DNA of 64,000 nt, from the NCBI RefSeq assembly GCF_007990635.1, contig NZ_AP019846.1, positions 1,674,001 to 1,738,000 on the forward strand, written 5' to 3'. The translations under genes were made by a program, and so were the position numbers. The stretch is from Leptotrichia hongkongensis (lineage in GTDB: Bacteria > Fusobacteriota > Fusobacteriia > Fusobacteriales > Leptotrichiaceae). The notes below the pieces were generated by a model. It searched no databases. It saw only the letters and a program-made list of their open reading frames with translations, and was not told where the DNA came from. This document shows, piece after piece, positions 40,863-54,866 of the stretch (position 1 is its first letter; each line of letters begins with the position of its first letter).

Positions 40863-41012
40863 TTATTTAAAAAGCCCTTTTATTAAAATTGTTAGTATCG
40901 TCAATATTGCGAGTATGATTTCTGCTAACAATTTGATTATTTCGAGGACTTGTTTTAAGTCCTCTTTTTTTCGCCTCCTTTCTTTTTCCTTTCGACTTAA
41001 TTTTCTTTTCAT
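40863..41012 (-). CDS. Small lysine-rich hydrophobic peptide, 49 residues
   Basis: ATG 41012-41010 has AAAGGTGG upstream; a longer frame to 41,057 lacks a site. Residues 1-18 are strongly basic (MKRKLSRKEKERRRKKED), then a helix IIKLLAEIILAILTILTIL with a short basic tail. Opposite its coding sequence the plus strand carries a perfect 8-bp terminator hairpin with seven T. A short antisense RNA is therefore possible. Candidate type I toxin-like or holin-like peptide, or simply a phage unknown. Confidence 0.55.
   Translation of the reverse strand: MKRKLSRKEKERRRKKEDLKQVLEIIKLLAEIILAILTILTILIKGLFK
40914..40972 (+). ncRNA. Candidate antisense RNA opposite the 49-residue peptide
   Basis: GAGGACTT / AAGTCCTC (8 bp, loop GTTTT) at 40,944-40,964 is followed by seven T on the plus strand, inside a minus-strand gene. 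A possible -10 (TATGAT, 40,914-40,919) with TTAGTA 16 bases upstream would give an RNA of about 50 bases. The promoter is weak. The terminator is the firm part. Confidence 0.35.
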
Positions 41013-41221
41013 TGTCCACCACCTTTCTATCTCCCTCTTACATATGTATAGTAACATATTTTTATGTAAAACGAAAGCGTTTTTGATAAAATATTTTTAT
41101 TTTTTTCAAAATTTAAAAATAATGGTAATTTCTGCAAAAAATATACCTTAAAATACCCCTATTACGATTACTTGTAATCCTTATAAATAAGCATTTCGCG
41201 ATATGTATAAATACTGTATTT

Positions 41222-41250
41222 TTTTAAAAAAAGGATACATAAAGTATCCT
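41222..41250 (-). terminator. Terminator of the phage lysis/late operon
   Basis: On the minus strand AGGATAC pairs with GTATCCT around TTTAT, then seven T. It overlaps the stop codon of the last late gene. Confidence 0.88.
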
Positions 41251-41815
41251 AATTCAACAAATCTTTTATCTTGTTATACATTCTATTTTCAAAATGTTCA
41301 AAATGTGTTTCTACACTTCTTTCTGCTGTCACATAGAGTGATTTATCTTGTTTACCATGCTCTTTTAAGTCTTCAAGTAGAGCAATTATGAGATTTTTAG
41401 TTTCAGTGAGTTCTTCATCTAAAATTGTCATAAACACTTTTAATACAGCTTTGTCAATTATATCTCTTAAATCTGTATATATTTCATGTTTCTTTTCTTC
41501 TATTTTCAGGTCTATTTCCCTTAATATTATTATCCAGTTAAGGCTGATATTATTATCTACGATATACTGAACTATTCTCTTCTGCAAGCTCCATCTTAGC
41601 CCTTGAGATGTAAAGTTTAATACCATCTCAAGCCCTTTTCCTCTCATAGTATTCATGTTCATACTCTGCATAAACTTCTTCATTTCTTTCTGTGTTTCAA
41701 GAGCTTCTTTCATGAAAGGAACTACAGAACGGTAGAGTATAATTATTGTCAGACACATAAATACTATTGAAATCCCATGGTTTTCTATGTACAATATAAG
41801 TTCCTTTAACTGCAT
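41249..41815 (-). CDS. Phage membrane-anchored helical protein, unknown
   Basis: 188 residues. One membrane segment (about 13-32, GISIVFMCLTIIILY), then a long helical cytoplasmic or periplasmic part rich in Lys and Glu. Last gene of the lysis cassette, immediately before the operon terminator. The position suggests a lysis accessory role (spanin-like or anti-holin), but there is no lipobox and I recognise no family. Confidence 0.65.
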   Translation of the reverse strand: MQLKELILYIENHGISIVFMCLTIIILYRSVVPFMKEALETQKEMKKFMQSMNMNTMRGKGLEMVLNFTSQGLRWSLQKRIVQYIVDNNISLNWIIILREIDLKIEEKKHEIYTDLRDIIDKAVLKVFMTILDEELTETKNLIIALLEDLKEHGKQDKSLYVTAERSVETHFEHFENRMYNKIKDLLN

Positions 41816-41823
41816 TGCTATTC

Positions 41824-42111
41824 CTACTTTCTATCAAAATAATAAACGAACCCAGCTCTGGCAAGCAATTCTCTGTCTCCTCTGAAATTATCACGGTAAT
41901 TTATATCAGCATATATATTACTTCGACTGTAGTCACGCTTATAATCAATCACATTGAAGTTCAGTTTATTATTGTCAGTAGCAGAGAGTTTTCCACTCTC
42001 CACTACCTTTTCAATTACCTTATCAATTGCTTTTTCCGTAGCCTGTTCAGTTACTTTTTCTATTTTCTCTCCGACAGTAGCTTTTATTCTTCCACTGCTG
42101 TCGGCTTTGCT
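41824..42111 (-). CDS. Start-less reading frame, probable -1 frameshift extension of the holin-like protein
   Basis: 95 codons (SKADSSGRIKATVGEKIEKV ... ARAGFVYYFDRK) with no ATG, GTG or TTG at its beginning. The frame overlaps the end of the holin-like gene in the -1 frame. The overlap contains G GGT TTA in the correct zero-frame register (plus 42,111-42,117), a classical slippery heptamer, and AGGAGG lies directly before it. Slippage there would fuse 123 residues of the holin-like protein to these 95. The product has an amphipathic helix and a Tyr/Arg-rich C-terminal half. Confidence 0.6.
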   Translation of the reverse strand, partial: SKADSSGRIKATVGEKIEKVTEQATEKAIDKVIEKVVESGKLSATDNNKLNFNVIDYKRDYSRSNIYADINYRDNFRGDRELLARAGFVYYFDRK

Positions 42112-42479
42112 AAACCCTCCTGCTTGTACTCGTTCAACTTTCTTTCTATTTCCCTTGCGATAGCATTTTCATCTATCAATCTATCTATTGTTGGTCTCTG
42201 TTTTTCAGGGAACATTTTCAGAACTCTATTTTGAACAGTTAGAACAGCCTGAACCAGTCTTTCATGATTTGGCTTTATGCCTTTCAGCATGTCTCCGTAA
42301 GCTATTCCCTGCGGAATAAACTTAAGTACATATTTAGATATTTTTCTTTTAAGCAAATACTTATGCCCATTAATTACAATTAAAGATAATCCCCTTGCTA
42401 TCAGTCCGGCTAATGCTACCGCCACTAAATTTGTTAAATTTGCTCCAAATTGATTTAATACTGTTGTTATCATGTTCAT
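42084..42479 (-). CDS. Holin-like phage protein
   Basis: 131 residues. A hydrophobic N-terminus (LTNLVAVALAGLIARGLSLIVI, roughly 15-36, shown in part) is followed by a basic helix and a charged tail ending KPTAVEE. This resembles holins of the LLH type, and it directly follows the amidase gene (one-base gap) in the lysis cassette. Its own stop lies inside the -1 frame described at 41,824-42,111. Holin is the likely role by position; the family match is not certain. Confidence 0.55.
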   Translation of the reverse strand: MNMITTVLNQFGANLTNLVAVALAGLIARGLSLIVINGHKYLLKRKISKYVLKFIPQGIAYGDMLKGIKPNHERLVQAVLTVQNRVLKMFPEKQRPTIDRLIDENAIAREIERKLNEYKQEGLAKPTAVEE

Positions 42480-42480
42480 T

Positions 42481-43062
42481 TTACATCACTCCTTCAAAAT
42501 ATTCTTTTATAGATTTTTTTATAGCTTCCACATATTCTTGCTTTTTCTGTTTTCCGAGCTTCAAATCGCTATTGTTATCTATGAAAAACGGTTCAATAAT
42601 GTTGCAAGGTGCATTGGTTTTATATAGCAAATAGCTACCCCTCGTTTCCATATCCTTAAACTTGACAGGATTTCGCTTTTTAATTTCGTTTGTAACTCTT
42701 GGTTTTGCTCCTCTGTTATGAATTCCAAAAGTTTCGGAAATATTTTTACTTAATATCTCTGCTAATTTTTTAGATTTTTCACTTGAATGCCAGTAAAGTG
42801 CCTCTGTTCCTGAAGCAATTCCATCAAATGAATTACAATGCAGTGATAAAATCAAGTCTGATTTGTAGCCGTTGACTATCTCAATATTTTCAACCTTGTT
42901 ATATCCCCTGTTATATTTTACGACTTCATACTCATTTTTTAATGCTTCCATAAGCATATCAGCAAGTTCGATATTATAAGCAAGCTCAGTCTCTTTTGTA
43001 TAAGGGTTAATTGCTCCGCAATCATTTCCGCCGTGCCCAATTATTATACAAATTTTTTTCAT
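42481..43062 (-). CDS. N-acetylmuramoyl-L-alanine amidase (Amidase_3)
   Basis: 193 residues, the catalytic domain alone. Zinc ligands are expected at His9 (IGHGG), Glu about 27 (ETELAYNI) and His75 (LHCNS). The catalytic Glu is in NIIEPFFIDN near 157. It cuts the bond between muramic acid and the peptide stem. Unusually, it lies directly beside a second lytic enzyme (GH108), with a one-base gap. No signal peptide, so export would rely on a holin. Confidence 0.92.
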   Translation of the reverse strand: MKKICIIIGHGGNDCGAINPYTKETELAYNIELADMLMEALKNEYEVVKYNRGYNKVENIEIVNGYKSDLILSLHCNSFDGIASGTEALYWHSSEKSKKLAEILSKNISETFGIHNRGAKPRVTNEIKKRNPVKFKDMETRGSYLLYKTNAPCNIIEPFFIDNNSDLKLGKQKKQEYVEAIKKSIKEYFEGVM

Positions 43063-43063
43063 C

Positions 43064-43600
43064 TTACACCATCTCCTTTAAATATTTTTCTTTTCTGTCA
43101 ACACGATTCAACCACCCAGTCAAAAAATCTTTCTGAGTTGGATTATATTCGACTACAGAATGATAAAATTTTCTCTGTATGTCGTGATATTCTTTCAAAA
43201 ATTCTTCTGACTTTCCTTGTTCTTCCACTTCATTCAAGGCTTTTATAGTCTTGCTTCCAAAAATACCGTCTACAACTAAATCATAACCAAAATATTTGTT
43301 TAACGTTACCTGTGCCTTTTTAGTTGCCCATTTTCCTGAGTTAAAACTCCAGTCACATATTGATAATGCAATCTTGTCATTTTTTACTTCATTCAAACGA
43401 TTTTTCAGGTAATAGTCTTTTTCCAATATTTTTTTGGCAAACTCTTTCGTTAAATCTTTCATAGAACCACGATAGCCATTCTTTCTTGCTTCCTCTTTTG
43501 TAATTCCCCAAGTTGTTTCTCCACCCTTATCATTTTTGTCGTTGGTATAGCCACCCTCGACAGACAACGTAAAGTTGAAAATTTTGTCAAATCTATCCAT
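43064..43600 (-). CDS. Phage endolysin, GH108 muramidase with peptidoglycan-binding module
   Basis: 178 residues. The catalytic Glu is in SVEGGYTND (residue 16), followed by KGGETTWGIT, and a C-terminal binding module begins near VVDGIFGSKT. It shares extended motifs with the chromosomal GH108 gene at 8,523-9,053. It cleaves the glycan strand, complementing the adjacent amidase. The start overlaps the stop region of the small upstream gene (ATGTAGATGG). Confidence 0.92.
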   Translation of the reverse strand: MDRFDKIFNFTLSVEGGYTNDKNDKGGETTWGITKEEARKNGYRGSMKDLTKEFAKKILEKDYYLKNRLNEVKNDKIALSICDWSFNSGKWATKKAQVTLNKYFGYDLVVDGIFGSKTIKALNEVEEQGKSEEFLKEYHDIQRKFYHSVVEYNPTQKDFLTGWLNRVDRKEKYLKEMV

Positions 43601-53822: not shown

Positions 53823-54062
53823 TTATTCGCTTTCTTCTTGCCTCGCCTTTTCTTCCTCAATCAATTTATTAGCCCTTGCTATCCAGTAATCCAGCTCATC
53901 AAATGTACATTTCATAAGCGTTTCATAACTAATATTCATTTTAAAATAGTTGAGCCCACTCAATAAATCTGTAATCAAGTCTAAAAAGTCATCTGTTACG
54001 CTTCCGCCGTTGGAGTTTTCTCGTCCTTGTCTTCGTCCGTTCCCCAACCTTTTACTAAAAAA
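53823..54062 (-). CDS. Tail assembly chaperone E' (made by -1 frameshift from E)
   Basis: The -1 frame that overlaps the end of E and continues as SVTDDFLDLITDLLSGLN... to EEEKARQEESE. No credible independent start: the first in-frame GTG/TTG-type codons are inside E without a ribosome site. The heptamer T TTT TTA (plus 54,056-54,062), in the zero-frame register of E, allows -1 slippage. The frame is open from there to the stop at 53,823. P2 uses the same arrangement (E and E+E'). Confidence 0.75.
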   Translation of the reverse strand, partial: FFSKRLGNGRRQGRENSNGGSVTDDFLDLITDLLSGLNYFKMNISYETLMKCTFDELDYWIARANKLIEEEKARQEESE

Positions 54063-54328
54063 TTCTTAGTTTGATTTACCACTTTTAAAAAGTCTTCAGC
54101 GCCTAATGTCATTAAATGCCCATATTTAATACCTGATGCCTTTTCAGCTACAGTCAAAGCCCAAGCATCATCAAAATCTTTAAAGTTTTCGGCATTAGAC
54201 TTCATTCTTGATTTATAATCTTTTCCACATTCCAATAAATCTGCCCCTGTCAAATTATCCAGTTTCAAATCTATTTCTTTGTATTTTTTACTTCCTAAAT
54301 CATATTCTTTTGTTAATTTTATAATCAT
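53996..54328 (-). CDS. Tail assembly chaperone E
   Basis: 110 residues. Short helical protein with LKLDNLTGADLLECGKDY, typical of P2-type gpE and related tail assembly chaperones, and a C-terminal acidic tail. It lies between the tube protein and the tape measure gene. It assists tape measure assembly. The frameshift site is in its codons for NFL near residue 90. Confidence 0.85.
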   Translation of the reverse strand: MIIKLTKEYDLGSKKYKEIDLKLDNLTGADLLECGKDYKSRMKSNAENFKDFDDAWALTVAEKASGIKYGHLMTLGAEDFLKVVNQTKNFLVKGWGTDEDKDEKTPTAEA

Positions 54329-54338
54329 TCTATTCCTC

Positions 54339-54866
54339 CTAAATATGTCCTAATAATTGTCTTATGATATTATTTAAACTTCCATTTACATTTGAAATTC
54401 CATTCAACACATCAATTTCAATGATTGTTTTACCATTTATCATTAATTTGTAATAAGTTATACTCAAATCAAATGAACCTTCAAATTTCTTACCGTTCTC
54501 AACTTTTGGACCATCAAATTTTGTGATAAATCCTTTCAATGTTGCATCTGCACCAGTTACTTTTGGCGAGTGCGACATTCTATCTAATTCTTGTAAAGCT
54601 CCCAAACACTCTAATGTGATTGAATCATTATTATTAAAATTTAATAATGTATCATTCATACTATCCATTTTGACCTTAGCTGACATTTTTTTGTAATGTC
54701 CAATTAGCGGAGCTTCAAATTCTGCAGCCATACCAAATTGTTCAGTTGTTATTGTTGCAGACTCAACGTTTGGAAGTTCTACTACTCCAACTCCTTCTAA
54801 TGCATTCGAACCATTGACATAAAGGTCAGCGTCAACGATTCCCAAAGGCAGTTTCTTTTTAGCCAT
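54339..54866 (-). CDS. Major tail tube protein (P2 gpFII-like)
   Basis: 175 residues. The family pattern is clear: LPLGIVDADLYVNGSN near the start, LPNVESATITTEQFGMAAEFE and a final KTIIEIDVLNGISNVNG. It forms the inner tube of the contractile tail. Immediately downstream of the sheath gene (11-base gap), as in P2. Confidence 0.92.
   Translation of the reverse strand: MAKKKLPLGIVDADLYVNGSNALEGVGVVELPNVESATITTEQFGMAAEFEAPLIGHYKKMSAKVKMDSMNDTLLNFNNNDSITLECLGALQELDRMSHSPKVTGADATLKGFITKFDGPKVENGKKFEGSFDLSITYYKLMINGKTIIEIDVLNGISNVNGSLNNIIRQLLGHI

Follow-up and report, generated by a model that had tools for sequence, protein, structure and literature searches.

The locus described here lies on the minus strand of the window, by which we mean the whole 64,000-nucleotide stretch of Leptotrichia hongkongensis DNA that was analysed, and sits in the lysis module of a P2-like prophage. 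Re-reading of the ORF coordinates left those of the original prediction unchanged and placed all features on this strand. The features are as follows:

43064..43600, minus strand: second endolysin, glycosyl hydrolase 108 (GH108; Pfam, E 2.7e-22)
42481..43062, minus strand: endolysin, N-acetylmuramoyl-L-alanine amidase (Amidase_3; Pfam, E 8.8e-29)
42084..42479, minus strand: ORF1, zero frame, holin-like protein of 131 aa, directly 3' of the amidase gene
42111..42117, minus strand: putative slippery heptamer G_GGT_TTA, invariant in 6/6 homologues
42105..42110, minus strand: spacer GCAAAG, 6 nt long in 6/6 homologues
42071..42104, minus strand: stem-loop with the 5' arm CCGACAG (42104-42098) and the 3' arm CTGTCGG (42077-42071)
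42084..42086, minus strand: zero-frame TAA stop of ORF1, inside the loop of the stem-loop
41824..42111, minus strand: ORF2, -1 frame extension of 95 codons plus stop, without usable start and with dN/dS well below 1
41249..41815, minus strand: next gene, 188-aa single-span membrane protein of BhlA-like layout as judged by eye

P2-like baseplate, tail fibre and tail genes are located upstream of the endolysin genes and ORF1. Together with the position of ORF1 3' of two endolysins, they identify a late-operon lysis module. Like holins, ORF1 is a small membrane protein whose gene adjoins an endolysin gene in a late operon. Hydropathy predicts one membrane segment at about residues 15-39. Profile searches matched no Pfam or NCBIfam family, including the LLH holin family PF09682, and gave one weak match over residues 14-128 to PHROG 6918, annotated as 'holin' (E 0.033). 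ORF1 is treated here as a putative holin. By the positive-inside rule, the positive charges that immediately follow the membrane segment would place the C-terminus in the cytoplasm. Pfam and PHROG searches gave no family match for the 188-aa gene. Near the lysis genes, the minus strand also encodes a highly basic protein of 64 aa (40863-41057), which has a membrane segment at its C-terminus and no family match.

ORF2 is open from stop to stop (42168 to 41824, with the stop codon at 41824-41826), and its frame is shifted by -1 relative to that of ORF1. The original prediction that this 95-codon frame has no start codon at its beginning holds, as the first ATG, GTG or TTG is the GTG at 42003, which lies past the part predicted to be helical, 55 codons after the open frame begins. 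An internal start at this GTG, which would produce a separate 59-aa beta tail, is a highly improbable explanation. A GTG at this position is retained in the four same-genus sequences described below, but it is missing from both copies found in another genus and lies in a poor ribosome-binding context, and conservation in the -1 frame extends to the helical part that precedes it. In three tails of a second clade (L032, L038 and L041), the 59-62 tail codons contain no ATG, GTG or TTG.

We searched 96 genomes of the order for relatives of ORF1 and ORF2. The two co-occur in G070, G075 and G079, which represent three further species of the genus, and at two contig ends of G084, a genome from another genus; with the window, this gave six independent sequences. 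IMG/VR contig 2788500453 carries a further copy resembling that of G070. All relatives came from this whole-genome search of the order and from IMG/VR; none turned up in 84,980 species genomes or among phage and plasmid records, which were scanned as well. Weak profile matches at eight other loci (L033-L037, L070, L071 and L074) proved unrelated upon reading. ORF2 lies in the -1 frame in every relative carrying the pair, and all six sequences lack ATG, GTG and TTG from the last upstream -1 stop to the ORF1 stop. In the two G084 copies the frames overlap by just 11-12 codons, and the shift site is therefore tightly bounded. The relatives expected to contradict a frameshift, namely tails with a normal ATG start or in-frame fusions, were sought and not found in the genomes searched. 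A 103-aa relative of ORF1 in G086 (contig C21, L007) has no tail at all, and the next gene is a membrane protein with its own start, which indicates that the tail is an extension.

The substitution pattern indicates purifying selection on ORF2 as read in the -1 frame. The dN/dS ratio was 0.08 between the window and G070, and more distant pairs, including those between the clades, gave pS of about 0.7-0.8 versus pN of about 0.2; the near-identical pair G075/G079 was uninformative. The -1 frame is accordingly open beyond the zero-frame stop and selected at the protein level. Frame breaks frequently stem from sequencing errors or gene decay, but the same break recurs in many independent assemblies from several genera with both frames under purifying selection. 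The homologues thus refute a sequencing error, and we consider an error or a decayed gene practically negligible as an explanation.

The zero frame reads GAG GGT TTA GCA AAG around the presumed shift site. It contains GGGTTTA in register as G_GGT_TTA at 42117-42111, as originally proposed, and the conservation of both the heptamer and the frame, which had been proposed as a check, was found in all six homologues. GAGGGTTTAG is invariant across the aligned homologues. The codons GAG GGT TTA are frozen in each of them, whereas around these codons, in the ORF1 end that the homologues share, 11 of the 20 columns with an invariant residue use different codons. Among the 14,805 codons of the 44 other window genes, no in-register GGGTTTA is present, and any in-register XXXYYYZ accounts for 1.2% of codons. 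Because 6/6 sequences keep the heptamer together with a -1 frame that lacks a start, and in-register GGGTTTA is absent from the 44 other genes, the arrangement goes beyond chance. GGG.UUU.A is outside the best heptamers in E. coli, which counts against frameshifting here (PMC4066793). Slippage would join Leu123 to the AGC codon of the -1 frame (first base 42111), and the 218-residue product originally calculated is reproduced as 123 plus 95 residues. Transcriptional slippage was ruled out, as the site has no long homopolymer run. The AGGAGG at 42121-42116, previously suggested as a dnaX-like stimulator, did not withstand comparison: it overlaps the heptamer and is misplaced, and only the window and G079 have it (2/6). 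The optional upstream Shine-Dalgarno stimulator of the dnaX type is thus not a conserved part of the site.

In each of the six sequences, a hairpin that had escaped the original prediction follows the heptamer at a distance of exactly 6 nt, within the spacing of 5-8 nt downstream reported for -1 stimulators (PMC4066793). The minimum free energy of the window hairpin is -13.4 kcal/mol (z -3.55), and the six hairpins range from -10.0 to -14.7 kcal/mol (z -2.9 to -5.7), with 0-1 of 200 shuffles per hairpin equally stable. The stems differ in sequence between the two genera while pairing is preserved, with compensatory, double-sided changes at six of the eight stem pairs; one pair is broken in G079, which counts against the structure. 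The covariation score of the stem was 0.592 compared with 0.282 for shuffled alignments (reached by 0/500) and at most 0.158 for slid controls. Likewise, 89.6% of the cells in the stem alignment are paired, versus 72% in shuffles and 21-42% with a slid partner, and RNAalifold recovers the same stem unaided. A terminator is unlikely because no U-run follows the hairpin and the zero-frame stop lies inside it. The stem-loop is the strongest element in favour of frameshifting.

Coupled reinitiation could also bring ribosomes into the -1 frame, at an ATA that overlaps the ORF1 stop (ATAA or ATAG), and would yield a separate tail protein. This ATA is found in 6/6 sequences, and G-rich motifs in E. 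coli are able to promote weak initiation at an AUA that lies 7 nt downstream in the -1 frame (PMC4066793). Its conservation is nearly automatic, however, as TAA or TAG is preceded by A when the last codon is GAA or AAA. A TGA stop, which would create an efficient ATGA, is used in none of the six, and no conserved Shine-Dalgarno sequence lies at a working distance. In the second clade, the codon overlapping the stop is GTA. Nor would reinitiation account for why the heptamer is frozen and why a covarying hairpin follows it 6 nt later, and we consider this route very unlikely. A -1 programmed frameshift, as originally predicted, is supported by the conserved heptamer, the conserved frame, the 6-nt spacer and the covarying stem-loop, an arrangement that, on sequence grounds, has the textbook anatomy of such a signal. 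We conclude that the locus very probably carries a -1 programmed ribosomal frameshift with predicted products of 131 and 218 residues.

We infer slippage, its rate and the role of the tail as follows. The majority of ribosomes would terminate at the ORF1 stop and release the 131-aa holin-like membrane protein. Some would pause at the stem-loop while their P and A sites cover G_GGT_TTA, and slip one base back to GGG TTT. These would bypass the zero-frame stop, which lies in the stem-loop, and translate 95 further codons. The resulting 218-aa form, presumably a fixed minor fraction, would combine the same membrane segment with a conserved helical and beta-stranded tail.

Individual elements of this arrangement are known from other systems. 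The tail assembly chaperones lambda G/GT and P2 E/E+E' likewise come from a dsDNA phage gene with a short and a C-terminally extended form, produced at a fixed ratio by -1 slippage, but they serve tail assembly and are unrelated to the lysis-module proteins described here. The same prophage likely contains such a classical tail-chaperone frameshift on the minus strand at 53823-54349: the likely chaperone gene (54328-53996) has TTTTTTA in register at about 54064-54058, the overlapping -1 frame reaches 53823, and the tape-measure gene comes next. The -1 signals of E. coli dnaX and IS elements share the heptamer with a stem-loop a few nucleotides downstream; they differ from the present site, which has no conserved upstream Shine-Dalgarno sequence and a G_GGU_UUA instead of an A-rich heptamer. 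Frameshifting in totivirus gag-pol is stimulated by a pseudoknot. The gag-pol signal of the yeast L-A type uses the same heptamer GGGUUUA (PMC8780742), although in a eukaryotic RNA virus with unrelated proteins. Open-access literature combining holins with programmed or ribosomal frameshifting yielded, in the portions available to us, tail-gene cases only, and two large frameshift papers do not mention holins in the text examined; such absence is weak evidence. As far as we found, two lengths of a lysis protein made via ribosome slippage have not been described previously.

Phages set the time of lysis via two holin forms or antiholins. Two product lengths from one holin gene are made by lambda S105/S107 and by SPP1 gp26/gp26* (PMC6316719), which arise from dual N-terminal starts, unlike the C-terminal frameshift proposed here. 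By analogy with the two forms of lambda S, long subunits may co-assemble with short ones via their shared N-terminal part, and the fixed ratio could set the lysis time, a role to which we give somewhat less than an even chance. If true, a constant-ratio ribosomal frameshift would represent a new solution to lysis timing.

The tail itself could point to a different task. The host genome encodes Omp85 and therefore has two membranes, and no recognisable lipoprotein spanin is present in the lysis region. Given a frameshift, the long form might be an unusual spanin-like protein, with an inner-membrane anchor, a periplasmic helix, and beta strands that bind to or insert into the outer membrane. The AlphaFold2 model of the tail, which predicts a helix followed by a three-strand meander, speaks for this possibility but is of low confidence (pLDDT 56 overall, about 67-75 in the strands). 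A Foldseek search with this model returned no match at E 0.001 or better, and profile comparison found no match between the tail and host outer-membrane proteins and gave no support for a likeness to the YadA anchor or autotransporters. Rz/Rz1 spanin genes likewise have overlapping frames in the lysis cassette of phages with diderm hosts, but Rz1, unlike the ORF2 tail, possesses a start of its own as well as a lipobox, both of which the tail lacks. No lipobox-bearing small frame was found in ORF1, ORF2 or the frames near the lysis genes, which thus lack the lipoprotein signal of spanins. The positive-inside rule also places the tail in the cytoplasm. As the charges seem to favour a cytoplasmic tail, we prefer the timing role; a tail that contacts the outer membrane in a spanin-like task comes next, and we regard it as rather unlikely.

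A profile of the conserved tail end also retrieved a second clade, consisting of sequences from G094, G095 and G091 and five IMG/VR contigs. In this clade, ORF1 belongs to the LLH holins (PF09682, E 2.9e-8 for the G095 protein, the one tested), and profile comparison found no similarity between these LLH holins and the window ORF1. The tail can be reached solely via the -1 frame, and the shift would have to take place within 7-13 nt at the ORF1 stop. Most sequences have GGGGAAG as the site, G091 has GGGGGAG and L041 has GGGTAAG, and this absence of a canonical heptamer counts against the frameshift reading. The shift mechanism is less clean here because re-pairing needs one G-U pair for GGGGAAG and GGGGGAG and one mismatch for GGGTAAG. 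At six of the loci (L031, L032, L038-L040 and L042), an inverted repeat GGGGAA(GTARR)TTCCCC overlaps the shift site and the stop codon, and in L041 the arms are changed yet complementary (GGGTA..TACCC). Most of the second-clade tails end exactly in an aromatic residue, as outer-membrane proteins do; the host autotransporters end in F or Y. This ending favours the spanin-like role.

The arrangement thus recurs on two sequence-unrelated holin-like proteins, and a start-less conserved tail is invisible to annotation pipelines. The tail may bear on how Fusobacteria-type phages without a recognisable spanin break the outer membrane. It would be a bolder and still less probable generalisation that -1 frameshifting is the invariable route by which a family of lysis membrane proteins of these phages acquires an outer-membrane-seeking beta tail. 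The family would include at least two holin-like proteins that are unrelated in sequence and differ in their slip sites, and this would constitute a new recoding-controlled way to finish diderm lysis.

The two parts of the long form have different relationships among the homologues. The window ORF1 is nearest to that of G079 and the window ORF2 to that of G070, while G075 and G079 have ORF2 but not ORF1 in common. In the alignment, relatedness switches close to the slippery site, which would suit a role of the frameshift signal as a joint for module exchange. The gene 3' of the tail is also exchanged between unrelated membrane proteins (L003, L004, L005, L012 and L016). It is BhlA-like in the window and G070, another of these membrane proteins on G084 contig C19, an unrelated multi-span, holin-like protein in G075 and G079, and again multi-span on G084 contig C21.
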